Of a DNA stretch of 64,000 bases, positions 4,413 to 57,488 are shown one piece after another. The notes below the pieces were generated by a model. That model had not been told where the DNA came from, did not search any database, and saw nothing but the letters and a program-made list of their open reading frames with translations. The stretch comes from Paracoccaceae bacterium. GTDB taxonomy: Bacteria > Pseudomonadota > Alphaproteobacteria > Rhodobacterales > Rhodobacteraceae. Positions within the stretch are counted from its first letter, which is position 1. Each line of letters opens with the position of its first letter. The translations under genes were made by a program, and so were the position numbers. The stretch covers positions 186,001 through 250,000 of the forward strand of contig JACONK010000018.1 in assembly GCA_014323795.1 (NCBI GenBank), written 5' to 3'.

Positions 4413-5579
4413 ATGGGATATAAAAGGCCGGACATACGTCCAAAAAACCCCCGCTTTTCTTCTGGCCCCTGCAGGAAACCGCCCACCTGGGCACTCACCG
4501 CGCTGGGCGACGCGGCAGTCGGCCGGTCGCACCGGGCAGCATGTGGAAAATCCAAACTGAAATCCGCGATTGACGGTACGCGAGAGGTGCTGGGCATACC
4601 GGCCGACTACAGGGTCGGCATCGTGCCTGCGTCCGATACCGGCGCGGTGGAAATGGCCATGTGGTCCCTGCTTGGTTCGCGGCCCGTGACCATGCTGGCG
4701 TGGGAAAGTTTTGGCCGGGGCTGGGCAACCGACGCGGTACAACACCTGGGCCTGGACGCCAGGGTGGTGGAAGCCGGCTATGGCCACTTGCCTGACCTTG
4801 CCGCCGTCGATTGGCACGGCGATGTGGTCTTCACCTGGAACGGCACGACCAGCGGCGTAAGGGTGCCTTCGGGAGATGTAATCCCGGCGGAGCGTGCCGG
4901 GCTGACGATTTGCGACGCAACTTCGGCGGTGTTCGCACAGGATCTTCCGTGGGACAAACTTGATGTGACGACATTCTCCTGGCAGAAGGCACTGGGCGGC
5001 GAGGCAGCCCATGGCATGCTAATCCTTGGTCCCCGGGCAGTGGAGCGGCTGGAAAACCATACCCCTGCCTGGCCTCTGCCAAAGATTTTCCGCCTGACGC
5101 AGGGCGGCAGGCTGATCGAGAATATCTTTGAGGGTGCCACAATCAACACGCCATCGATGCTGTGTGTGGAGGATTACCTCTTCGCACTCGACTGGGCCCG
5201 CGAGTGTGGAGGGTTGCGGGCACTGAAGGCGCGGGCGGATGAAAGCCTTGCGGCAATTGCGGATTTTACGGAGACGAAGGACTGGGTGGATTTCCTCGCC
5301 GTCAATCCGGCAACGCGGTCTAATACCTCCGTCTGTCTGACGTTCACCGACGCGACAATCCCGGACCCGGCAACCTTTGCGCGGGCCGTTGCCAAGCGGC
5401 TGGAAGACGAAAGTGTGGCGTTTGATATCGGTGCCTATCGCGATGCCCCGCCGGGCCTGCGTATCTGGTGCGGCGGAACCGTGGAGCCCGGCGATGTCGC
5501 GGCACTATTGCCGTGGATCGAATGGGCTTACCACGCCGAACGTACCGCAACCCCGGCAGGCAACCTGAACAACAGATAA
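4413..5579 (+). CDS. serC: Phosphoserine aminotransferase
   Basis: A 388-residue PLP enzyme converting 3-phosphohydroxypyruvate and glutamate to phosphoserine and 2-oxoglutarate. The Schiff-base lysine is in SWQKALGGE; substrate and cofactor regions include [13 protein letters not shown] and CDATSAVFA. The N-terminal [19 protein letters not shown] is typical of the alphaproteobacterial class. The ATG at 4413 has AAGGATACCAAA in front. serA follows after 21 bases, so the two are almost certainly co-transcribed, with divergent serB across the leader region. Confidence 0.95.
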
Positions 5580-5600: not shown

Positions 5601-7196
5601 ATGGCACACAAAGTGCTCGTATCCGACAAACTTTCCCCCAGTGCCGTGCAGCACTTTCGCGACCGCGGGATTGCGGTGGATTTTGAACCGAATCTCGGCA
5701 GGGACATGGTCGGGATGATAAAACGCATCGGCATCTATGACGGGCTCGCCATCCGCTCTGCCACGAAAGTCACCGACAAAATCCTCAACGCCGCGGACCG
5801 GTTGAAGGTGATCGGGCGGGCCGGGGTCGGCACGGACAATATCGATAAATCCGCTGCATCCAGAAAAGGCGTGATCGTCATGAACACGCCCTTCGGCAAC
5901 AGAATTACCACCGCAGAGCACACAATTGCCATGATGTTCGCGGTGGCCCGACAAATCCCGGAGGCAAACGCCTCCACCCACGCTGGCAAGTGGGAAAAAT
6001 CACGGTTCATGGGAGTGGAGCTGACAGGCAAAACCCTGGGCGTCATCGGAACGGGCAATATCGGCGGGATTGTCTGCGCCCGGGCCCGGGCGCTCGGGAT
6101 GAAAGTGATCGCCCATGATCCCTACCTGAGTCAGGAAAAGGCAGATCAGATGCAGGTGGAAAAGGCGGGGCTCGAGGATTTGCTTGCGTATGCCGACTTC
6201 ATCACGCTGCACGTGCCGCTGACAGATCAGACGAAGAATATCCTGAACCGCGAAACCCTTGGAAAAACCAAACCCGGGGTGCGGATTATCAACTGCGCCC
6301 GCGGGGGGCTGGTCGATGAGGCCGTGCTGGCGGACATGCTGCAATCCGGCCATGTGGCGGGCGCGGCACTCGACGTCTTCGCCACAGAACCGGCCGTGCA
6401 GAACCCGCTTTTCAATCTGCCCGGCGTCGTCTGCACCCCGCACCTCGGTGCTGCCACGACCGAGGCACAGGAAAACGTAGCCATGCAGGTAGCGGCGCAG
6501 ATGTCAAACTACCTGCTTGACGGGGCGGTGGAGAACGCGCTCAACATGCCGTCGATGACCGCCAAAGAGGCGAAGGTCATGGGCCTCTGGGTGCAGCTCG
6601 CAGGCCATCTCGGTACCTTCATTGGCCAGATGACGGATGAACCTGTCAAGTCCATCAACATCCTCTACGACGGCGAAGTCGCCACCATGAATCTGCCCGC
6701 ACTCACCTGCGCTGCGGTGGCAGGGATCATGAAACGGATGAACCCGGACGTGAACCTGGTCTCTGCCCCAGTGATCGCCGCGGAGCGGGGGATCAAAATC
6801 TCCACCACCAGCCAGTCAAAGTCGGGCGTGTTTGCGGGCTATATCCGGGTGGCAGTGATAACCGCAAAGCGGGAACGTTCCATCGGCGGGACTGTATTTT
6901 CCGACGGCAAACCGCGATTCATCCAGATCAAGGGCATCAACCTGGATGCAGAGGTCGGCCGTCACATGCTTTACACCACCAATGCGGATGTACCGGGCAT
7001 CATCGGTGCGCTCGGACAGACGATGGGGGCGAACGGGGTGAACATCGCGAACTTTACGCTCGGACGCTCACAGGCAGGCGGGGAGGCAATCGCGCTGCTC
7101 CGTCTGGATGACACCCCTCCTGCGGCTGCCCTGGAAGGGCTCGGAGAAACCGGGTTGTTTACCCGGATCAGGGCACTGGAGTTTGATGTGGACTAA
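5601..7196 (+). CDS. serA: D-3-phosphoglycerate dehydrogenase
   Basis: A 531-residue enzyme of the long (type 1) class that commits 3-phosphoglycerate to serine synthesis with NAD+. Visible parts: N-terminal substrate domain, Rossmann motif GTGNIGGIV, catalytic Arg in NCARGGLVDE and catalytic His in TPHLGAATTEAQ. An intervening domain of about 130 residues follows, then a C-terminal ACT domain (DVPGIIGALGQTMGANGVNI) that normally mediates serine feedback. It is the second gene of the serC-serA operon. Confidence 0.96.
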   Translation: MAHKVLVSDKLSPSAVQHFRDRGIAVDFEPNLGRDMVGMIKRIGIYDGLAIRSATKVTDKILNAADRLKVIGRAGVGTDNIDKSAASRKGVIVMNTPFGNRITTAEHTIAMMFAVARQIPEANASTHAGKWEKSRFMGVELTGKTLGVIGTGNIGGIVCARARALGMKVIAHDPYLSQEKADQMQVEKAGLEDLLAYADFITLHVPLTDQTKNILNRETLGKTKPGVRIINCARGGLVDEAVLADMLQSGHVAGAALDVFATEPAVQNPLFNLPGVVCTPHLGAATTEAQENVAMQVAAQMSNYLLDGAVENALNMPSMTAKEAKVMGLWVQLAGHLGTFIGQMTDEPVKSINILYDGEVATMNLPALTCAAVAGIMKRMNPDVNLVSAPVIAAERGIKISTTSQSKSGVFAGYIRVAVITAKRERSIGGTVFSDGKPRFIQIKGINLDAEVGRHMLYTTNADVPGIIGALGQTMGANGVNIANFTLGRSQAGGEAIALLRLDDTPPAAALEGLGETGLFTRIRALEFDVD

Positions 7197-36399: not shown

Positions 36400-36903
36400 T
36401 TAAACGGGGCTGTTGCCGGGCACATCAGACCCATAGTAATGGAAGCACCAGCGACGGCGGACCATATCTCCCCAGTATAAAATATCATTTGCCAATGATG
36501 CAACGTTACAGCAACAGTCTGCCATTAGAATTGCACGACGCAACGATGCGGCCAGTTCATCGCCTTCCACCCGCATGAGTTTCTGAAACCTTAGGGGAGA
36601 CATCACCGCTGTTTTTCCCCCACCAAGGCATTGGGCCAGGGTTTTATTTTTGTTGTGGTCGCGGACCTCCGCCAGCAAACACACAAGCCGGGAAATCCTT
36701 TCGGCAGCTATTCGTTTTAACTCTGAGTTCCTTTGCAGTGATTCATATAATTCATGTACGGCAGGCTCACAAAGAGCGTCCAAAGTTGCGGCCCTCCGCA
36801 ACCTGGCAGAAAGCGCTTTGGCTGAGGAATTTTCCCGCGGTTTGATATTTTTGGACCACCAATTAAGGGCGATAGAACCGGGATTCGTATCAGAATTGGC
36901 CAT
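36400..36903 (-). CDS. casB: CRISPR type I-E Cascade subunit Cse2/CasB
   Basis: A 167-residue small subunit of the type I-E effector. Visible family features are SIALNWWSKNIKPRENSSAK, ARLRRAATLDAL and MSPLRFQKLM, all in an alpha-helical, basic protein. The ATG at 36903 is preferred because AGAGG lies 8 bases upstream and it starts 4 bases after the cas5 stop; ATG 36927 would overlap cas5. Two copies normally line the target strand in Cascade. Here the gene is last in the operon instead of following cse1. Confidence 0.85.
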   Translation of the reverse strand: MANSDTNPGSIALNWWSKNIKPRENSSAKALSARLRRAATLDALCEPAVHELYESLQRNSELKRIAAERISRLVCLLAEVRDHNKNKTLAQCLGGGKTAVMSPLRFQKLMRVEGDELAASLRRAILMADCCCNVASLANDILYWGDMVRRRWCFHYYGSDVPGNSPV

Positions 36904-36907
36904 CGTA

Positions 36908-37624
36908 TTAACCTCTGTTTCTGGCATGAATTCGAGTGTTATCCTGCATCACTTCTATATTCACGTCACGTCGCTCGATACGGCGCGCCGTGAAATGCCG
37001 CAGCCCCCGGTTTATCGGCACGTCATGTATAATCTCGCCATCTTCCGAACCACAGATAAGGGTACGTGCGACGTTCCTGTCCTGATTCTTCCGCCATGGC
37101 GGAAGAATCAGTTGTGTCAGTGCTTCTTCTGCAGTTTCGGCCTCAACCACCATGGCACCCGGCGGGGCAGAGAGTGGGCAGGACTTGCGGCCCAGGTAAA
37201 GCGTGTAGTGCGGGTGATTCAGAAAATCAGCCACCTTATCCAAGTCATCTCCCCAGACCGCAACCCCGTAAAAAGCGCCGACACGATAGTCACGTAGGGT
37301 AATTGTTGTTTCCGCCGCCGTCTTCTTCCGAGCCTCGCGCAGAGATTCGGGGCGGGAATTGGGGTGTTTTACCCTCGTCCCGGGCACGGTCTCAAAGGTA
37401 TGATAGTCGCGCAACAGGGTGCCGGTATCAAATATGGCCACCGCCATATCCAGCGCATCCAGTGCCGAAAAATCCCCACCCCTGTCTATACCCATAGCGG
37501 CACCAAGAAACCCGATTATGGCGGAACGCCCAGGATAATCCAGCGAGCCGCGCCGCTCATGCCCTGCCAGTTCGCCCATTGCGCCTAACGAGGACGTAAG
37601 GGTGAAAATCAGGTAGGATTGCAT
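36908..37624 (-). CDS. cas5e: CRISPR type I-E Cascade subunit Cas5e
   Basis: A 238-residue RAMP protein that caps the 5' handle of the crRNA. The start MQSYLIFTLTSSLGAMGELA and GRSAIIGFLGAAMGI, TTITLRDYRVGAFYGVAV and LYLGRKSCPLSAPP are typical. It overlaps cas7 by 16 bases. A perfect 30-bp palindrome (37082-37111) lies inside the coding sequence, encoding residues around LILPPWRKNQ in frame. The downstream end INRGLRHFTARRIERRDV matches the family. Confidence 0.92.
   Translation of the reverse strand: MQSYLIFTLTSSLGAMGELAGHERRGSLDYPGRSAIIGFLGAAMGIDRGGDFSALDALDMAVAIFDTGTLLRDYHTFETVPGTRVKHPNSRPESLREARKKTAAETTITLRDYRVGAFYGVAVWGDDLDKVADFLNHPHYTLYLGRKSCPLSAPPGAMVVEAETAEEALTQLILPPWRKNQDRNVARTLICGSEDGEIIHDVPINRGLRHFTARRIERRDVNIEVMQDNTRIHARNRG
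37082..37111. repeat. Perfect 30-bp palindrome inside cas5e
   Basis: The sequence equals its own reverse complement over 30 bases, centred on CCATGG, with arms beginning CTGATTCTTCCG. It is in frame and does not interrupt cas5e. It could form an mRNA hairpin or cruciform, or be the trace of a small palindromic insertion. Confidence 0.95.
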
Positions 37625-38673
37625 CCCGCCTCCCTTACAGCAGCACCCGCAAAATGGACGATCTTGTCCAAAGTGCCTGTGACGCCAACCCTCATGGTAT
37701 GATCGTCATCGCATCCCCGCCCGTACGCCGAGTCAATATCAGCTCGTGTCTTTTCCAGCACTTTGACTGAATTTTCAAGGTAAGGTGTATCAACGGGATC
37801 GAAGAATGCCCCCGACAGATCGCGCGGTGCCTGAGTGCCTCGTTCGGCTAACACATAATGTGCCCGAGGATGGTGGGCGAAACTGTTCTGCTTGCCTTTA
37901 GGCGTCGCAATTGCAATTGCGCGGGCAAGTGCCTCAGCACCTTTCGATGCAAGGTCACGGTCCCCTGCCAGGTTTTTGACAAGAAGGTCGACATTCACAC
38001 AAACATACTGATAGTAAACGCCGGACCCGAATCCAATCTCACCCAGATGGCCAGAGTCGGGTTTGTTTTCCGCCTTGTTCAGATCATCCACCGCCGAAAA
38101 CCAGTCCTCTTGTGCAATAGCGGTATGAGTCGTGAAGGCATGGGCTACCTGAACGGCGGCGTCACGGTTGAACGCGGGGGCGCCTGCCAGCATTCGACCA
38201 AACATGGCGATATCAACCGCACCGTCAGCCCGCTGCAGGACATGCTTCTTCATCTCCTTATCATTTGGGAGTTTGTCTCCAGATACAATCTTTTCCGCCA
38301 ATTCCTCTGCCAGTTTCCATTCATCCGGCGAGATGAAGGCAAGTGTTGTAACAGAACTTACGTTCTCCGATTTCTCCATTTTGCCGAAAATTCCAGCCAC
38401 TTCATCTGCGGCGGTATTTGCTTCTGTTTCGGCAATTTCTTTCGATTTCAGATGCTCGACGAGCTTTTCATGCAGTCGCTTTGTGCGGGTGCCCAATTTA
38501 TCCTTGAGGTCGATTTCAAAGAAAGAACTTTCCCGCAGAGCACGTTTTACTGATTGAGACGACAGGCGCAGGCTTCCTCCCACCCTCGCCTCCTTGGGGC
38601 GTCCCTGATCATCACGATTCGGGTTTGACGGACCATAGGTGGTCAACAGATGAAATTGCAGAAAGGTACTCAT
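37609..38673 (-). CDS. cas7e: CRISPR type I-E Cascade backbone subunit Cas7e
   Basis: A 354-residue backbone protein that polymerises along the crRNA. The start MSTFLQFHLLTTYGPSNPNRD, LRLSSQSVKRALRES, FGRMLAGAPAFNRDAAVQVAH and KQNSFAHHP are hallmark Cse4/CasC stretches. ATG 38673 is chosen for the AAGGAGA site 7 bases upstream; the in-frame extension to 38739 lacks support. A 118-base gap separates it from cse1, wider than other gaps in the operon. Confidence 0.94.
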   Translation of the reverse strand: MSTFLQFHLLTTYGPSNPNRDDQGRPKEARVGGSLRLSSQSVKRALRESSFFEIDLKDKLGTRTKRLHEKLVEHLKSKEIAETEANTAADEVAGIFGKMEKSENVSSVTTLAFISPDEWKLAEELAEKIVSGDKLPNDKEMKKHVLQRADGAVDIAMFGRMLAGAPAFNRDAAVQVAHAFTTHTAIAQEDWFSAVDDLNKAENKPDSGHLGEIGFGSGVYYQYVCVNVDLLVKNLAGDRDLASKGAEALARAIAIATPKGKQNSFAHHPRAHYVLAERGTQAPRDLSGAFFDPVDTPYLENSVKVLEKTRADIDSAYGRGCDDDHTMRVGVTGTLDKIVHFAGAAVREAGCNPT

Positions 38674-38791
38674 CGGCAGGTCTCCTTTGGAGTTGGATTT
38701 GGCTACGACAGCCTCAGGCTTCATTTCAGAGTTTGTCATCGCCTTATACCCAATTATTCCTATGGGTGTGAAGTCATTGGAATTTTTGTTT

Positions 38792-40282
38792 CTATGCGTC
38801 AGACATATCCATTAATTTTGGTAATTTTCGAAAAAGAAATCCTAAAAGACTTTTACGTTTTTTAATGATCTTGTCAATCAGATTTATGTCCATATGGATG
38901 AATGAGTGTTCAGTTAATGCATCGAACCGCGCTATGGCTTTTTGTTGTAAATCTTTCATCCAGATATATCGTGGGTCGCCACCGCCCTTCAATTTCTGAA
39001 CATGATTAAGGAACCGATCTTCTGTTTCGGCAAAGAAAGAATCACTTTCGACATTGAGTAATTCCTTTTCTATCGAAATGGACTCACGAAGTGCCTTTCG
39101 TAAAATACGGTTGGTTTCTTCGGCTGCGCCGATCATTTTTACGATAATGTCTTCCTGGTCGATTTCCTGTGATTGAAACTTCAAGAGGGGCTGGGTAGAA
39201 AATATGAAATTGACCGGCTTCATATTATCCATTGCCCATCCGGCAACGACCACATCAGAATCTCCACCCCGGTTTTCACTCCATTCAGTCAGGGACAGGG
39301 ACAGTTCAGAAGTGTTACTTCTCGATTCCCGCATAACTATGCCCAGCCAATTACGGTATCCGAATCGGCCTGGCCCAGGATGTTTCGGCGACCATTCCTC
39401 CTTGGCATTATTCCTGCGGTGTGGACTCAAAGGATGTTTCCATCCTGCATAGTTTGTGCCGTATTTTCTCTGCCGCACACCCTTTATATAGCCATTGTCC
39501 CCGATCAAACGAATACGTCTTGGCATCCCGAAAAATGCCTCTACCCCGAATTTCCTGTTGTCCTCCCCGGGGGCATACCCCGGCGGAAAAGTCTTTTGAT
39601 TGTTATGTTCCCTATCAGAAAAACGCGTGGCCCGTGTCCACGGCAGACATTCAAAATCGGATTCGGGGTCGGGATTGTTTCTACACGGCACATTCGCCCA
39701 GATCAAATCCCAAAGACCACTCCCGGGATTGACGAGCGTGGTCATGGGGCCACCGCCCCGCATAGATGTTCGATGCCCCGACCCGCCCGAAGGGGCAAAT
39801 GCCTGGAGCGTGTACAGGGCCATAGCCGCAGTCGGCAGATCAAGACTCTGATAACGGTCTCGATGCACCATCAAATCTTTATTATCCTCTATAGTTTTAT
39901 GGGCGGCACTATCTATAAATAACATGTCAACGGGTTTTTCTTCCTCCCCTTCCAAAGGATCAGTATCCTGCAGAAATCGGTGACCATCCCCCAGAAGATT
40001 GAAAGCCCCCGTGAAAGGTTCCAGCTTTTTCTTCAGGTGTTCCGGGTCAGGGTTCTGCCGCCCAGACCAATCACCCCTGTTTATAGGCGGATCTGCAAGG
40101 AATATCATCCCGATCAACAGTTCGTAGCAGGCGATGTTCATATCCGGGCGCGGCCAGTTGGGGCGTAGAACATCATGTGCCGCCATTTGCCACGGGGCGA
40201 TTTTCCGTTTTTTACCATCGCGACACACGACAGGGATCCACGGGATTTTAATCAGATTAAACATCTCCGCATTTGTCATCAT
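38792..40282 (-). CDS. casA: CRISPR type I-E Cascade large subunit Cse1/CasA
   Basis: A 496-residue large subunit that recognises the PAM and recruits Cas3. N-terminal FNLIKIPWIPVVCRDG is typical. Central landmarks are FAPSGGSGHRTSMRGGGPMTTLV and GLWDLIWANV, with a C-terminal four-helix bundle. Length is normal for CasA. ATG ATG at the start leaves a one-codon ambiguity. It is 57 bases downstream of cas3 and is followed by cas7 rather than cse2. Confidence 0.93.
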   Translation of the reverse strand: MMTNAEMFNLIKIPWIPVVCRDGKKRKIAPWQMAAHDVLRPNWPRPDMNIACYELLIGMIFLADPPINRGDWSGRQNPDPEHLKKKLEPFTGAFNLLGDGHRFLQDTDPLEGEEEKPVDMLFIDSAAHKTIEDNKDLMVHRDRYQSLDLPTAAMALYTLQAFAPSGGSGHRTSMRGGGPMTTLVNPGSGLWDLIWANVPCRNNPDPESDFECLPWTRATRFSDREHNNQKTFPPGYAPGEDNRKFGVEAFFGMPRRIRLIGDNGYIKGVRQRKYGTNYAGWKHPLSPHRRNNAKEEWSPKHPGPGRFGYRNWLGIVMRESRSNTSELSLSLTEWSENRGGDSDVVVAGWAMDNMKPVNFIFSTQPLLKFQSQEIDQEDIIVKMIGAAEETNRILRKALRESISIEKELLNVESDSFFAETEDRFLNHVQKLKGGGDPRYIWMKDLQQKAIARFDALTEHSFIHMDINLIDKIIKKRKSLLGFLFRKLPKLMDMSDA

Positions 40283-40339
40283 CTTGATCTACCCATGATT
40301 TCGATAAGAATAAAGGGCCTACAATTTCTTCCCTTGGCG

Positions 40340-42865
40340 TCATTCCTGATCACCAAATGACAATCCGACATCCGCATCATAAGTCAAACCGTCACATATC
40401 GATCCATCCGGCCCCACAGGGCAGATATGATACCCTCCGCGCTCACATACTTTGCGCTTCCATTTCGGGAATCCTTCTATAACCTCGTGTATCTCATGCA
40501 TGGATTGATCAGGCAAGGGGAGACGATCAAGGCGTTCGCGGGATGCGGAAACCTCCGAGAGAGGCCATGAATCCTCCCCGTGTCCGGCCCATGGGCGAAG
40601 TTTTCCGTTTTCTTCCACGGCCAAAACCAGAGTTTTTTGCTCACTTCCCAATCTGGTCGGATATTCGGTATCATCATGGGCTCTTCCACCGCTACGATAG
40701 CCTTCCCCAAGATTGACAATATTGTGTGCGGCAAGGCATCGGGCAGAGAGCCCCTGCCCTTCAACAGCATTTTCAGAATTCTGCAAAACATCGGGAACGG
40801 GAATGGCATCAGCTCCGTGGACCGGCTCTATAAGCGAACGTAGGCTTGGCGGCGCATCAATCTTTCCTTCCCTGAACAAAACCTGTGCAGTACGCCACTG
40901 ATCGGTGACAGGGTAGACGTATGCCCCGCTATCAAGGACATCATGCAGCCAACGATCATTTTCAACTTTATCCGGATCGGGTGAAAGTACATGCAGCGTC
41001 GGCCCGTCTACCGGGCGGGAGGCTACCGGGCGGATATCCATATGACGCCACAACCGGCCAGCCCGCTGGATCAGCGCGGCCACAGGGGCAAGGTCTGACA
41101 CCATAGCATCAAAATCCAGATCCAGAGACGATTCAAGCACTTGGGTTCCCACCAGAACAAACCCATTCCGATCCTTACCGACTTTGCCCGCGTGATCCAT
41201 AACCTCGGACTCAATTCTCTTGCGATCACCGAGTACAAATCTCGCATGCAACAACCGGGCCCGGACCCCTTTGGATCGGAGAGACGCAACAGCCGATATA
41301 GCATCATCCACCGCATTCCTCACCCAAACACATGCTGCACCTTGCCCGGCATTTTCAGCCAGTAACCTAACCGCCTCATCCGCATGTGACAGCCGTTCAA
41401 CTTTCACCGATCCCTTCGGTCCGATAGTCTGCGGCAGATCAATCACCGATACACCCTTCGCGACTGTCAAGGCTGGATAGGCACTATGATTCGACGTACC
41501 TTCGTAAACATTCAGCAGGCGTTCCCGTTGCACCATCGGCAAAGTCGCTGTCAGCAGAATTGCTGATCCTCCAGATGTACGGTGCATCCGCAACAGTGCC
41601 TCCAATTCAGAACTTATATACGGCTCACCCAGTTCATGTACCTCATCCACGATCAGAATTTTCGATGACAATCCGAAATGACGAAGAGATTGGTGTTTCA
41701 CTGGCAAGACCGACATTAATGCCTGGTCTATGGTCCCTACCCCGACATCGGCTAAAAGTGCCCTTCGACGACTTTGAGATAAAAATTCTGAACAGGTGAC
41801 CTCATCATCTTCACGCACATCCGCGTTTATGATATCCTTAAAATCAACGGATAATCCTGCACGTCCATGGGCCAGAGTCAGCGTTATGCCATTCCCAAAC
41901 ATCTTGCCCACCACTTTCGAAGCCCGCCGAAACATCGCGTCTGCCGTAGCCATTGTAGGCAGGGCGAAAAATATCCCCCGGCCTTTGCCTGCCAGCAACA
42001 TGCGCTGCGCCAGAAAAAGTGCCGCCTCTGTTTTCCCCGCGCCCGTCTCATCCTCAATGATCGCCAACATTGGACCCTCGACCATATCGATATTGGCACA
42101 TGCCTTCTGCATCGGGCGCAAATCAAAATCAAACAGGCGGGTATTCGCGGGTTCTGATCCCGCAAGACCAGCCTCAGAAACAGCGCACACGGATATCTCT
42201 CGGGCGTCTTTCAGATAGTCTGAGAGACCAACACCAGCTTTTTTCGGTTTAAACCAACGCGTATTTGACCCGACCCAATCCGCCGCAGTACACAGCCCAG
42301 GAAGCCACCATGACAATGCCGCAGATCTTTTTTCCGATATGTCGCCGAGTGCCGCCTCCGGCCACAGTTCACAAAACGCAATCACCACATCACCTGCATC
42401 TTTCGAGGCATCCTGGCCAATCCTACGAAGAGAGTTCCTGTAATCAAGCGGGCGTCTGCCCCTGCATTCAAGTGGTCCAATTCTGAGATCCGAAGGCCTT
42501 CCGTGGTGCCCGGACACTGCCGCATATAAATCCCGGCGGACCCATTGGTTACTTCCAAGGTGACATTCAAGCACGGGGTCAGACTCAAAGAGCAACACCT
42601 CCGTCAGTTTCCAATGCCCGAAATTCTCCTGAGACATGCCGTATCTTACGGCATTCCGAAAGTTGTCACTAATCTTGCCCAGATCGTGCAGCGCAATGAG
42701 CAGGATCATCGCGTCGCGCAGGGGTTTATCGTAGCGAAAGGGATCAATCAATCTCTCCGCAACAGCCGCAACGTCCAGCATGTGATATACTGCCGGGTGT
42801 TCCGGCAGACCACTGCCCTCCGGGGAACTTTTACCCGGCCAGTTGGCAATTGCATTTGGGGTCAC
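40340..42865 (-). CDS. cas3: CRISPR-associated helicase-nuclease Cas3
   Basis: An 841-residue effector nuclease. The HD domain shows YHMLDVAAVAERL and ALHDLGKISDNF; the helicase has Walker A DETGAGKTEAALF, motif II VDEVHELG, motif III LLTATLP and motif VI IQRAGRLWRHMD. All key motifs look intact, so target DNA degradation should work. The start is probably GTG 42865, with no good Shine-Dalgarno; an 8-codon frame starting ATGTTTGAA ends over this GTG (GTGA), possibly coupling translation. A degenerate CRISPR repeat lies 61 bases upstream of the start. Confidence 0.92.
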   Translation of the reverse strand: MTPNAIANWPGKSSPEGSGLPEHPAVYHMLDVAAVAERLIDPFRYDKPLRDAMILLIALHDLGKISDNFRNAVRYGMSQENFGHWKLTEVLLFESDPVLECHLGSNQWVRRDLYAAVSGHHGRPSDLRIGPLECRGRRPLDYRNSLRRIGQDASKDAGDVVIAFCELWPEAALGDISEKRSAALSWWLPGLCTAADWVGSNTRWFKPKKAGVGLSDYLKDAREISVCAVSEAGLAGSEPANTRLFDFDLRPMQKACANIDMVEGPMLAIIEDETGAGKTEAALFLAQRMLLAGKGRGIFFALPTMATADAMFRRASKVVGKMFGNGITLTLAHGRAGLSVDFKDIINADVREDDEVTCSEFLSQSRRRALLADVGVGTIDQALMSVLPVKHQSLRHFGLSSKILIVDEVHELGEPYISSELEALLRMHRTSGGSAILLTATLPMVQRERLLNVYEGTSNHSAYPALTVAKGVSVIDLPQTIGPKGSVKVERLSHADEAVRLLAENAGQGAACVWVRNAVDDAISAVASLRSKGVRARLLHARFVLGDRKRIESEVMDHAGKVGKDRNGFVLVGTQVLESSLDLDFDAMVSDLAPVAALIQRAGRLWRHMDIRPVASRPVDGPTLHVLSPDPDKVENDRWLHDVLDSGAYVYPVTDQWRTAQVLFREGKIDAPPSLRSLIEPVHGADAIPVPDVLQNSENAVEGQGLSARCLAAHNIVNLGEGYRSGGRAHDDTEYPTRLGSEQKTLVLAVEENGKLRPWAGHGEDSWPLSEVSASRERLDRLPLPDQSMHEIHEVIEGFPKWKRKVCERGGYHICPVGPDGSICDGLTYDADVGLSFGDQE

Positions 42866-42925
42866 AGGAGGTTTTTTGATTCAAACATCACCTTTATACC
42901 TGATAGTTTGCGCCCCCAAGAGTAT

Positions 42926-42954
42926 CGGTTCCTCCCAATGTGGGTGGGGAACAG
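42926..42954 (-). repeat. Isolated degenerate CRISPR repeat upstream of cas3
   Basis: 25 of 29 positions match the array consensus, including TGGGTGGGGAAC intact. It has no partner repeat at spacer distance and sits between a decayed frame and the cas3 start. It is oriented like the array (crRNA strand is minus). Confidence 0.85.
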
Positions 42955-42960
42955 ATTGCT

Positions 42961-43160
42961 TCACTCCGCATATTCAGACATCCATTTTTCAACATGGTAT
43001 TCGGTATCCCAACGTTCTTCGAATTGGAACCTCCGTTTGCCTTTCCGGTCAACAGCCGTGAAGGCAGGCTGGCCATTCAGGATTTCACAACCGAAAAGCA
43101 GTTGATAATTCGCTCTTCATTATCGAAGTCGGTCACCAGCCACGCATCCAATTAATAAGG
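42961..43160 (-). pseudogene. Decayed small reading frame between two lone CRISPR repeats
   Basis: Protein-like sequence is split over two frames on the minus strand. LDAWLVTDFDNEERIIN comes first, then in another frame FGCEILNGQPAFTAVDRKGK and RRFQFEERWDTEYHVEKWMS to a TGA at 42961. Neither part has a good start codon. Composition is unlike an accidental frame (charged, balanced, no run bias). The family is not recognised. It fills the space between the degenerate repeats at 42926 and 43225. Confidence 0.35.
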
Positions 43161-43224
43161 ATTCGATTAGGTATCAGGGGGATGTGGCCTATCATGATTT
43201 CTATTTCCTTGCTTTTCTTTCTTG

Positions 43225-43253
43225 CGGTTCATCCCTACGTGGGTGGGGAACAA
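43225..43253 (-). repeat. Isolated near-intact CRISPR repeat
   Basis: 26 of 29 positions match the consensus; the differences are one base in the stem and the last two bases on the plus strand. No repeat follows at 61 bases on either side. Minus-strand sequence after it begins CAAGAAAGAAAAGCAAGG, purine-rich and unlike the other spacers. Confidence 0.88.
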
Positions 43254-43316
43254 GAAATATCAAGTTCGGGTTTTCACGATGTATTCGTGCAGCAGCCTCT
43301 GTCCCGAAGGCGGGAA

Positions 43317-43346
43317 GTCCGGCGCACCTTGGGAGATGCGCCGGAC
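43317..43346 (-). terminator. Strong hairpin after the two-gene cassette
   Basis: A perfect 10-bp GC-rich stem (GTCCGGCGCA / TGCGCCGGAC) with a 10-base loop starts 5 bases after the stop of the 53-residue gene. There is no T-run, so it may be a Rho-dependent or partial terminator, or protect the RNA end. It would separate array/cassette transcripts from cas3. Confidence 0.65.
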
Positions 43347-43351
43347 AGGGT

Positions 43352-43513
43352 TTAGAACCCGAACATGCCGAACCCCATGGGCATAGGCGTTACCAGTATG
43401 CGCGATGTTCTTTCCGCGCTCTTCATTTTTGATGCGTACTCCAGTTCGTCTTCCGACTTGTCTGGCGACTCATCTGCCGGTTCCACATCGGGCTGGTCTT
43501 TTTCGTGTGTCAT
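43352..43513 (-). CDS. Hypothetical 53-residue acidic protein, second gene of CRISPR-linked cassette
   Basis: It starts MTHEKDQPDVEPADESPDKS, continues acidic and charged, then ends with a hydrophobic MGFGMFGF tail. Its ATG overlaps the stop of the upstream gene (ATGA), a sign of translational coupling. A strong hairpin follows 5 bases after the stop. No known family. A small, charged, coupled pair next to a CRISPR array could be phage-derived, an anti-CRISPR or regulatory pair, or an unknown accessory of the locus; the sequence alone does not decide. Confidence 0.6.
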   Translation of the reverse strand: MTHEKDQPDVEPADESPDKSEDELEYASKMKSAERTSRILVTPMPMGFGMFGF

Positions 43514-43809
43514 CCTACACCTGCTATTCTGGCGATCTTGGTCGCCGCTTCATCGATCTTGGTATCAGTGGCGATCTCCTCGAGCATCCGGTCCCGCAGA
43601 TCCCTGCGATCTTCGTACGCCTTCTCGATCATGCGCCTTCCCATAATCATACCAATCTCTGCATCATCATGGGTAAGGGTAGCACTGCTCTCCCTGATCT
43701 CCGCGTTCGTCATCCAGTTCGGGACGAACCTGATACCGCCTTCCCTAGTCTCAAGGACTTCGATCTCCAAGTCAATAGCGATACCATTGATTGGGAAGTC
43801 ATCCTTCAT
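43510..43809 (-). CDS. Hypothetical protein starting inside the terminal CRISPR repeat
   Basis: A 99-residue frame beginning MKDDFPINGIAIDLEIEVLE. The ATG at 43809 is made by the 3' part of the last CRISPR repeat, whose end differs from consensus exactly there; GTGGGG before it is repeat sequence. An alternative ATG at 43833 lies at the spacer border and would add MQFPTHVG from the repeat. The second half (RRMIEKAYEDRRDLRDRMLE) is a charged helix. The family is unknown. It is read in the same direction as the array, so array transcripts would include it. Confidence 0.6.
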   Translation of the reverse strand: MKDDFPINGIAIDLEIEVLETREGGIRFVPNWMTNAEIRESSATLTHDDAEIGMIMGRRMIEKAYEDRRDLRDRMLEEIATDTKIDEAATKIARIAGVG

Positions 43810-44075
43810 CCCCACGTGGGTGGGGAACTGCATGACAGCATAAAGAGCTTCGGTGACATTGCCGGTTCATCCCCACGTGGGTGGGGAACTGTGGGGATAA
43901 AACCACCCCGATTACCACTACCACGGTTCATCCCCACGTGGGTGGGGAACTGGTAATTCATCGGATACGGTAAACATTTCCTATGCGGTTCATCCCCACG
44001 TGGGTGGGGAACTGGCGTAAGGTAGCTGGCGGTGAAGAAGTAGACCCGGTTCATCCCCACGTGGGTGGGGAACTG
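43802..44075 (-). CRISPR. Type I-E CRISPR array, 5 repeats and 4 spacers
   Basis: 29-bp repeats sit at 43802-43830, 43863-43891, 43924-43952, 43986-44014 and 44047-44075; on the minus strand they begin CAGTTCCCCACCCACG and end GATGAACCG. Spacers are 32, 32, 33 and 32 bases. The repeat has the I-E form (compare the E. coli GTTCCCC...GGGGATAAACCG pattern). Transcription is on the minus strand, so the cas2 side is leader-proximal. The repeat at 43802 is terminal, with its last three bases changed (AAGGA for AACCG), creating the start of the adjacent gene. Confidence 0.97.
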
Positions 44076-44107
44076 ACTTGCTATAACTTATTGATTTACC
44101 AACTAAT
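44076..44107 (-). promoter_or_regulatory. CRISPR leader, AT-rich and very short
   Basis: Only 32 bases separate the cas2 stop from the first repeat. On the minus strand they read TAAATCAATAAGTTATAGC near the repeat, an AT-rich block of the kind found at the leader end of I-E arrays. Further leader elements would have to overlap the cas2 coding end. Confidence 0.6.
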
Positions 44108-44410
44108 TCATGATACGGAGGGACGCACCGGCTTTTCGGGATAAAAACTTACCAGGCTCAGGCCGTCAAAATCTACGGGCATTCGGCGGTTGGTTCCCGC
44201 AGTGGCAAATTCATATCCCTGATCGGTAGGGGACTTCCAAACTATAACGGCGTCTCCGGTGTCGATATTCGCCACAACCTGATCCCAGATCATTTCTCGC
44301 GTCCGTGTTGAATAGTCACCGACGTAAACACCGGAGCGCACCTCCACCAGCCACGTAGCGAGCCGACCGCGCAACCGCGGCATAACGTTGGAAACGACGA
44401 TAACCATCAT
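44108..44410 (-). CDS. cas2: CRISPR adaptation protein Cas2 (type I-E form)
   Basis: A 100-residue protein of the I-E Cas2 type. It starts MMVIVVSNVMPRLRGRLATW and has EVRSGVYVGDYSTRTREMIW and NRRMPVDFDGLSLVSFYP. Its dimer bridges two Cas1 dimers in the integrase. Because the neighbouring cas1 is frameshifted, Cas2 probably has no working partner from this locus. It lies 4 bases after the cas1 frame ends and 32 bases before the array. Confidence 0.94.
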   Translation of the reverse strand: MMVIVVSNVMPRLRGRLATWLVEVRSGVYVGDYSTRTREMIWDQVVANIDTGDAVIVWKSPTDQGYEFATAGTNRRMPVDFDGLSLVSFYPEKPVRPSVS

Positions 44411-44413
44411 AAT

Positions 44414-45368
44414 CTAGCGGTGTCCTGCATCGCCGGATGGCAGTACGTCGGAAAAGGCAGGCTGAATCATATCTGGCGGTGGCACGGGGCGGGGGAGATC
44501 CCCTGCCAAAAGAACTTCTTCAATGGAAGGGATGATCTTTTTCAGCAGGCCTGTGCGGCGAAAGGCATCACGGCAGGCCAGACGAACGGCACGGTCCGGT
44601 GCCATATCAATCTTCCCCTTGGATATCTGACCAGCAATTCGGAACGCCTCGGGCACAACAGTATCTAATTTATAGATATCGGCGATATCATAGACAAAAG
44701 AACGGGGCTTGCCAACGGGGCTTGCCAGTGTGTAAAAAACCGATGGCCGGTGCATATCCTGCCGCCAAAACCGCGACTTCGGACAGCCCGTGCATACAGG
44801 CAGTTGCCGCGGACAGACAACGATTAGGCACATCACTGGCCATCCAATCCCCGGGATCATAGGCACGATTCTTCCAAGTCACCCCGTATTTCCTGGCCAG
44901 TAGCTTGTAGGATTCCCTGACCCGTACGCCCTCAATCCCGCGTAACTGGTTGATGGAGCGACGCGACGGCGCATCCTCATTGAAGCGCATCGCATACATC
45001 TTGCGTACCACGCGCAACCTTGCGGCATCGTTGAGTGCTATGGATGCCTGCCACAACAATTTATCAGATCTTGCCCCGCCAGGCTGACCTGCGGAATAGA
45101 GACGGACACCCCCTTCCCCGACCCAGGTAATCAGCGTACCCGTGCGGGCAGCAAAAGCCACAGCTGCATGGGAAATCCGCGCACCCGGTTCCAGCATGAC
45201 CCCTGCCAGCCCCCCTATGGGAATCTGGGTACGAGTACCGTCGGAATTGATCGTAACGAAAGCTCCATCGGCGACATCAAGATTCGCACGACCAACGAAG
45301 ACCAGAGAAGCTCGATCCTTCAACGGGATCGGACGTGGCGGGGCAAGCCCTGGAATTCCCCCACTCAC
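44414..45368 (-). pseudogene. cas1: cas1 (type I-E) disrupted by a 13-bp tandem duplication
   Basis: GTG 45368 overlaps the cas6e stop (GTGA) and opens a typical I-E Cas1 (MSGGIPGLAPPRPIPLKDRA). The frame runs through GFLHTGKPR and then shifts. An exact 13-bp tandem duplication at 44701-44726 inserts a second GGCAAGCCCCGTT, giving GKPRWQAPFFCL and a stop. Deleting one copy restores HTGKPRSFVYDIADIYKLDT and a 313-residue protein ending SDVLPSGDAGHR. By comparison with E. coli Cas1, the catalytic His precedes the break and the Asp pair of YDIAD follows it, so the truncated product should be inactive. Confidence 0.92.
44701..44726. repeat. Exact 13-bp tandem duplication in cas1
   Basis: Two adjacent copies of AACGGGGCTTGCC (plus strand) at 44701-44713 and 44714-44726. 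13 is not a multiple of three, so it shifts the cas1 frame. Identity of the copies points to a recent and possibly reversible event. Confidence 0.97.
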
Positions 45369-46051
45369 GACACGCGCCTGATCAACATGAGACCGCATCC
45401 AAACGACTTGGCTCTACCGAAACCCCTGGCAAGCTGCCTTAGGAAAGAAGATGCATCCGTAATTTCAATCCGCCCCATCATGTCAAGAATGCCGAATTGC
45501 GGCTGCCCTTTACGCGTACCGCGATTCTGCAGTGCTTCGGTTCTGTAATCGCTGATCTCGGCAGATACTACACGGAACCCGGCTGCCTTTCCCTGCCGTT
45601 CAAGCCACGTTCGGCCTTCCCGCGATGCTATTTCCATTCGTTTGGACCACCGCATGCCTTTTGGGATATTATACAGACCATCCATCACTACATCAACACG
45701 CAATCCCCCGCGTTTCTTCCGTGTAGCGTTAGCATGTAAAACGAAGTCGACTTGTGATCCCTGATTCAAGACTGGTGCGAATTTTTTTACCGCATGAGGT
45801 TCAAACAGGTCCGTCTGGGTCGGCTCTCGTTCAGAAAGCGTCAGGAACTCACCTTTGCGCCCTGTACGCCAAAGAAAATCCCGACAACGATCAGGACCAT
45901 CGGAAAAGATCGACCAAAGCAGATGATGATGGAACGACATGCGAGAGCTGTTTCCGGACAGCGACAGCATGCTATCCAGCGCACACCCCAAAGGATGGCG
46001 AGACAAGCGGATGCGGCTCAGATAGAGTTGTTTCATGTCAGATTTAGTCAT
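45365..46051 (-). CDS. cas6e: CRISPR type I-E crRNA endonuclease Cas6e/CasE
   Basis: A 228-residue processing nuclease that cuts the repeat hairpin. It has MKQLYLSRIRLSRHPLGCAL at the start, the catalytic-His region SFHHHLLWSIFSDGPDR, and a C-terminal Gly-rich loop LARGFGRAKSFGCGLMLIRR. AAGGAG lies 6 bases before ATG 46051. It heads a cas6e-cas1-cas2-array transcription unit, separated from the other Cascade genes by the array, and its stop overlaps the cas1 start. Confidence 0.93.
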   Translation of the reverse strand: MTKSDMKQLYLSRIRLSRHPLGCALDSMLSLSGNSSRMSFHHHLLWSIFSDGPDRCRDFLWRTGRKGEFLTLSEREPTQTDLFEPHAVKKFAPVLNQGSQVDFVLHANATRKKRGGLRVDVVMDGLYNIPKGMRWSKRMEIASREGRTWLERQGKAAGFRVVSAEISDYRTEALQNRGTRKGQPQFGILDMMGRIEITDASSFLRQLARGFGRAKSFGCGLMLIRRVS

Positions 46052-56787: not shown

Positions 56788-57488
56788 CAAACGTAATCAG
56801 CAGGCTTTTCGCCAGGGAAGAGGCGGCCCGCCGTATGGTGGAAAGACTGGTTTTTGAAGGCATGCCACGCACGGCACTGCAGGTGATTCCGCCACAGGAA
56901 TATAACGACGCGGACGCCCTGCGCAGCCGCCTGATGCGCAGCGACGTGCTGCCCGCTGCAGTTGACGCCTATGTGAAAGCCGTCCTGGCTGGCCATTCGC
57001 TCTTTGTGGCCCGCACCACCTACCGCCCGCTGGGCGTTGCGGGCATCGTCCGCGCTGCCCTGTCTCGCGCAGACACGGTGGATGTCGGTTTGCCGGAAGA
57101 AGAGCACACCTTCCCCGACGGCCCGGATCACGCACCAAGCGTTCTGAAAAGCCACCCGAGGTTCCTTACGCTCCCTTTCGCCGACGATGACGTCAGGGAC
57201 GGGCCAATCACACCGCAGTTCGGTTTCAAAACGATCACCCGCGGTCGGCGCACAAGCTCCGCCATTTCCGGCGGGCGATATATGTCGCGTATGTTCTGGC
57301 CGCAAAAGCTGATCTCGCAGAACCGCAAGGCAGGCTCTGCCATTTCCGGCGGGCGATACATGTCGCGTATATTCTGGCCACAAAAGCTGATCTCGCAGAA
57401 CAGGCGCCGCAATTCCGTCATCCGCGGCGGTGCACTGCCGCTGAGCCGTGCGCTTGGCTGGCCAACGGTATCAACCCGCGGCGGCTGA
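56784..57488 (+). CDS. pucC-coupled hypothetical protein with 26-residue tandem repeat
   Basis: A 234-residue protein, translationally coupled to pucC (ATGA) with GGAGG 6 bases before its ATG. Residues 1-115 form a compact alpha/beta-like domain (VISRLFAREEAARRMVERLV, LFVARTTYRPLGVAGIVRA). Residues about 159-210 hold two near-identical 26-residue units, SAISGGRYMSRMFWPQKLIS plus QNRKAG and its copy with RIFW. The C-terminus is basic and aromatic, perhaps membrane-surface binding. It is not obviously PucD or PucE. Function is unknown; location implies LH2 biogenesis or membrane organisation. Confidence 0.85.
   Translation: MTNVISRLFAREEAARRMVERLVFEGMPRTALQVIPPQEYNDADALRSRLMRSDVLPAAVDAYVKAVLAGHSLFVARTTYRPLGVAGIVRAALSRADTVDVGLPEEEHTFPDGPDHAPSVLKSHPRFLTLPFADDDVRDGPITPQFGFKTITRGRRTSSAISGGRYMSRMFWPQKLISQNRKAGSAISGGRYMSRIFWPQKLISQNRRRNSVIRGGALPLSRALGWPTVSTRGG
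57258..57413 (+). repeat. 78-bp tandem duplication in the pucC-coupled gene
   Basis: Two direct copies (about 57258-57335 and 57336-57413) differ at only a few positions, such as TGTTCTGGCCG versus TATTCTGGCCA. The period is 26 codons, so the frame is preserved. Confidence 0.9.

Follow-up and report, generated by a model that had tools for sequence, protein, structure and literature searches.

Type I CRISPR-Cas loci in which adaptation has been lost while the interference genes were kept are a known kind. The survey of Zhang and Ye published in 2017 reports 263 of 2001 type I loci without cas1 and cas2, 36 of those 263 having an adjacent array and a remote cas1 and/or cas2, and the supply of adaptation proteins in trans has been suggested there for some type I loci (PMC5294841). 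A damaged, truncated cas1 gene is described for type I-B loci of Bacteroides fragilis strains in which other CRISPR types are present as well (PMC5704556). As for the kind of mutation, pneumococcal capsule genes undergo phase variation in which a small perfect tandem duplication within the coding frame turns the gene off (Waite et al. 2001, 2003, cited in PMC4022640).

The type I-E locus analyzed here lies in a window of 64,000 nucleotides (the whole stretch of DNA under study) from a Paracoccaceae bacterium and is a case of this known kind. Like the loci surveyed in PMC5294841, it combines a loss of adaptation with remaining interference genes and array; in those loci, however, the genes are absent, whereas the locus studied here retains an open cas2 and a cas1 whose frame has been shifted by a small duplication of apparently recent date. 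It shares a damaged cas1 and the company of further CRISPR types with B. fragilis, where, in contrast, a large deletion also took cas3 and other interference genes (PMC5704556), and it shares a perfect in-gene duplication with the pneumococcal capsule genes, for which reversal was observed (cited in PMC4022640). According to our analysis, the I-E cas1 gene very probably underwent a recent loss-of-function mutation; the locus is rearranged, and the cell has additional CRISPR systems.

Interruption of cas1 by a 13-bp tandem duplication

A preliminary description of this DNA had claimed that an exact 13-bp duplication shifts the cas1 frame and that the break falls between the catalytic His and the Asp pair. 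Both claims were borne out, the former by TRF and by the open reading frames and the latter by alignment of the two gene pieces to E. coli Cas1. The features concerned are as follows.

44701..44713, minus strand: 13-bp tandem duplication, copy 1, numbered in plus-strand coordinates (TRF, tandem-match scan)
44714..44726, minus strand: 13-bp tandem duplication, copy 2 (TRF, tandem-match scan)
44688..45398, minus strand: cas1 5' frame, 236 aa, with E156 and H223 and a TGA stop after the duplication (TIGR03638 cas1_ECOLI, 271 bits; alignment to E. coli Cas1)
44414..44716, minus strand: cas1 3' piece in the other frame, with SFVYDIAD (aligned to E. coli Cas1 210-303, E = 2.4e-24)

TRF reports an array at 44701-44727 with a period of 13, 2.1 copies, and 100% match, and matches at distance 13 run over 14 bases, so that the boundary between the copies is free by one base. 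Since 13 is not divisible by 3, the duplication shifts the frame of cas1: the 5' frame (45398..44688) ends in HTGKPRWQAPFFCL followed by its TGA, which is reached nine residues past HTGKP, and the 3' piece continues in the frame of the ORF 44866..44414. In the phmmer alignment, residues 20-227 of the 5' piece match residues 5-212 of E. coli Cas1 (3nkd sequence; E = 9.4e-91), with E156 and H223 falling on E141 and H208, while the 3' piece covers D218 and D221. We take E141, H208, D218, and D221 to be the four catalytic residues of the E. coli protein. With the two pieces spanning residues 5-212 and 210-303, respectively, the break is placed after H208 and before D218/D221. The gene therefore resembles that of E. 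coli I-E Cas1 (3nkd sequence group) in that both pieces align and the four catalytic positions are kept, but differs from it in that the pieces lie in two frames.

We propose that the duplication arose by chance through replication slippage. The frame of the only I-E cas1 gene found is shifted just past HTGKP, and the product ends before D218/D221, so that, judging from the site of the break, integration by the I-E Cas1-Cas2 proteins should be lost.

The 13-bp tandem is beyond chance in the window, five mononucleotide shuffles of which contained no exact tandem repeat of period 11-60. Small exact tandem duplications are an ordinary mutational class that forms a background: seven of period 11-60 were found in 652 kb from 53 relatives' loci (some stretches being counted twice) and two in 140 kb of the bacterium's own genome, one of which is the cas1 duplication, and these numbers assign the duplication to that ordinary class. 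The window also has, at 57256-57401, about two tandem copies of a 78-bp unit, with 94% matches.

The same counts bear on the chance that the second copy was made during assembly, when a gap was closed or contigs were joined. This draft assembly comprises 37 contigs, and in another of them a poly-C run is followed by a run of N, but the duplication lies inside a 318-kb contig, the 140 kb of genome hold no excess of such duplications (the two of period 11-60), and 27 bp are far below the usual read length; we regard an artefact as improbable.

Conservation of cas1 and age of the break

A scan of genome contigs yielded 47 relative loci. The motif H-x-G-x3-SF-x2-D-x2-D is found in one frame and without insertion in 45 of them, including L048, where it has N for K and is intact; the remaining two are a locus at a contig end (L068) and a cas1 fragment in Rhodovulum steppense (L071). 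Fragments of cas1 were observed both at this second locus of R. steppense and in another genome (G058, L017), and decay of cas1 is thus not unique to the genome studied here. The closest relatives share up to 88% identity with the 5' piece, from which it follows that none of the scanned relatives is a sibling strain; the scan may omit records very near this genome. Within the genus, an I-E cse1 or cas1 was present in one of 33 genomes, namely, this one. A megablast search for a plasmid relative of the locus gave one 259-bp match, outside the cas genes, and a relative of Cas1 occurs in 180 plasmid records, with at most about 83% identity among the 15 matches listed.

The two pieces are nearly as conserved as the genes of the relatives are among themselves. 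Identity to 30 chosen relatives is 82.6% for the 5' piece and 74.0% for the 3' piece, versus 86.2% and 76.8% among the relatives, the sequence studied here ranking third lowest and fifth lowest of 31, respectively. Of the strongly conserved columns, the 5' piece breaks 8 of 151 and the 3' piece 3 of 51, the third most of 31 in each case (tied with L060 for the 3' piece). With its perfect copies, the lack of any other frame break, and pieces of such conservation, the duplication looks recent, in agreement with the earlier description; mild decay before the duplication is possible, and long disuse is not indicated.

The earlier description had also taken the perfect copies as a possible ON/OFF switch, a claim that we do not uphold. 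In this reading, gain or loss of one 13-bp copy would turn I-E spacer acquisition off or on in the population, and in one form of it acquisition would be off with interference on, limiting self-targeting while the other CRISPR types acquire; we consider both the general reading and this form very unlikely. It is true that the copies are perfect, that the remainder of both frames is open, and that phase variation by tandem duplication is recorded for the pneumococcal capsule genes, but for these same genes the reversion of insertions of up to 9 bp is expected at about 1e-5 or less (PMC4022640). Moreover, no one-copy, ON form was encountered among the genomes examined, the motif site being free of insertion in 45 of the 47 relatives and the genus having no other I-E locus among its 33 genomes; such tandem duplications are background; and the leader and array are altered too. 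Two short copies amount to an ordinary duplication rather than to the hypermutable repeat tract of a phase-variable gene, and a literature search, weak and in part swamped by word matches of the Cas13 type, found no report of a tandem-duplication switch in cas1. Least credible is a +1 ribosomal frameshift at the duplication (on CCC-C or TTT-T) that would still yield Cas1, since, although CCC CGT and TTC TTT TGT stand in the 5' frame beside the break and CCC-C is shift-prone, the runs are short and the extra residues would adjoin the catalytic His.

Gene content and order of the I-E locus

Apart from the probable loss-of-function mutation of cas1, the I-E locus has been rearranged and in part eroded. 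Its other genes are listed here.

45365..46051, minus strand: cas6e (TIGR01907)
44108..44410, minus strand: cas2, 100 aa, its 3' end entering the leader (TIGR01873, 111 bits; length compared with relatives)
40340..42865, minus strand: cas3 (profile matches, cas3_core and cas3_HD)
38792..40282, minus strand: cse1 (cas8e) (TIGR02547)
37609..38739, minus strand: cas7 (TIGR01869)
36908..37624, minus strand: cas5 (TIGR01868)
36400..36927, minus strand: cse2, at the operon end rather than behind cse1 (TIGR02548; order in relatives)

The type I-E family set, consisting of cas3, cse1, cse2, cas7, cas5, cas6e, cas1, and cas2, is present, with cas1 in two pieces only. That Cas2, Cas6e, the Cascade subunits, and Cas3 are intact, as had been described, is consistent with our data: Cas2, Cas6e, Cas3, Cse1, Cas7, Cas5, and Cse2 all have open frames, each matching its family, and Cas3 scores over the cut-offs of the cas3_core and cas3_HD domain models and under that of NF007248 (385 of 569 bits). 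Stored spacers may, given these open frames, still serve.

The locus has changed beyond what was noted earlier, by a permuted gene order, a lost TTGACA, the extension of cas2 into the leader, solitary repeats, and a cas3 relic. The order on the minus strand is cas6e-cas1-cas2-array-two solitary repeats-cas3-cse1-cas7-cas5-cse2 (36400-46051). Among the 51 loci used for comparison, 10 with one or more genes missing were set aside, and all of the 41 with all seven genes (39 distinct) show the canonical order, from which the window departs in that the array and solitary repeats lie between cas2 and cas3 and in that cse2 is shifted to the end. The interference proteins diverge more than those of ten relatives do from each other, most of all Cse1 (49.8% versus 62.4%), and Cas2 has 100 aa compared with 91-98 in 33 scored relatives.

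Leader, array, and solitary repeats

The noncoding features of the locus are the following.

44076..44130, minus strand: leader, with CGGTGCG and an IHF-like site kept and TTGACA replaced at 44114-44119
43802..44075, minus strand: CRISPR array, five repeats of 29 nt and four spacers
43225..43253, minus strand: solitary repeat
42926..42954, minus strand: solitary degenerate repeat just upstream of cas3

The E. coli leader is reported to have its IHF site between -9 and -35 and an upstream element between -50 and -55 (PMC10011333). The leader of the window preserves CGGTGCG at -55 to -49 and has TCCGTA at the position of TTGACA. Leaders were compared in 37 chosen relatives, mostly Rhodobacteraceae, of which 33 could be scored (L024, L026, L042, and L060 were unscorable): TTGACA stands 44 bases ahead of the first repeat in 28 of the 33 and 45 bases ahead in one, and is absent from four (L022, L031, L047, and L056). 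This hexamer could be a promoter element. L022, with its uninterrupted cas1 and some 25 repeats, has no TTGACA, so that loss of the hexamer need not disable an array. Between cas2 and the array of Rhodobacter sp. KR11 (L035, about 7335), a gap of 326 bp, a 14-bp unit is repeated about five times.

The array of the window is short. Arrays were recounted in 45 distinct loci, 10 of which have arrays ending less than 100 bp from a sequence end; the 35 arrays clear of sequence ends have at least 8 repeats, with a median of 30, versus 5 in the window, and all four relatives' arrays of 5 or fewer repeats fall among the 10 near sequence ends. The shortness had been read as fitting lost acquisition, a reading that fails because a recent break of cas1 deletes no spacers; it needs another cause. 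Exact 26-nt cores of all four spacers matched no viral contigs, a search that misses diverged targets, and the array stretch 43831-44046 gave a single weak match against phages (E = 0.06). Between the array and the solitary repeats there is an ORF of 107 codons (43510-43833), without matches in PHROGs and PADLOC.

A mismatch-tolerant scan of the 600 bp upstream of cas3, with the window as control, found a repeat-like site with 3 mismatches of 29 in the window and one with 2 on contig C27, whereas in all of 14 relatives, scanned with their own repeat, the best site upstream of cas3 has 10-15 mismatches, the same as in shuffles. The C27 sequence (about 5199-5482 of stretch L123) is 286 bp long and shares 84% identity with the window; in it a CRISPR repeat immediately precedes a fragment of the cas3 start, and it is a relic of another array-cas3 junction. 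Both the solitary repeats and this relic would be explained if the locus had once been duplicated in tandem and one copy afterwards trimmed. Contig C28 (about 5777-5872 of stretch L124) holds two I-E-like repeats 50 bp apart, without any of the sought cas genes nearby. We also considered for the solitary repeats a guide-like role of the creR/creA type and rejected it, the 32 nt after each repeat having no convincing match elsewhere in a scan of the window only (at best 20 and 15 identical bases of 32). The order in time of the changes in the locus can only be inferred.

Other cas1 genes and CRISPR systems in the genome

A second intact I-E cas1, which according to the preliminary description would have overturned its reading, was not found in the genome, which is 98% complete. 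PF01867 identified three other cas1 genes without internal stops, and the systems to which they belong, on contigs C1, C10, and C20, share the same 2.58-Mb genome. The cas1 gene on C20 adjoins a gene for a 1136-aa Cas9, with a run of N nearby and no array within the stretch examined. Contig C10 encodes a 588-aa Cas4-Cas1 fusion (NF049935, 693 bits) alongside Cas3g, Csb2, and Csb1 of a type I-G system. Contig C1 encodes a 338-aa Cas1 adjoining Cas4; its effector genes are of type I-G, and the best named subtype model of this Cas1 is I-C, under its cut-off. The cas1 genes of C10 and C1 each have a regular array beside them, the two arrays measuring about 775 and 767 bp.

A locus without adaptation of its own would have no intact cas1 of its own type in the genome, as is the case here, and no other cas1 that could serve in trans, whereas three others exist. 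The formula "interference on, adaptation off" given for this DNA consequently holds only in part: with three other uninterrupted cas1 genes, adaptation would be lost at most for the I-E system and not for the whole cell, and interference is predicted to be on from the open frames. Another system's Cas1 may serve the I-E array in trans, and, as other CRISPR systems with uninterrupted cas1 were kept, the loss may have cost the cell little.

Significance

Small leads of their own are the permuted gene order of the locus and the strict placement of TTGACA in the leaders of related I-E systems. If the break in cas1 is real, the locus would be a clean natural example, caught at an early stage, of how a single small mutation freezes a type I-E system with the spacers it already has. 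It would allow one to study for how long interference genes persist once adaptation is gone, and whether an I-E array can be served by the Cas1-Cas2 proteins of another system.
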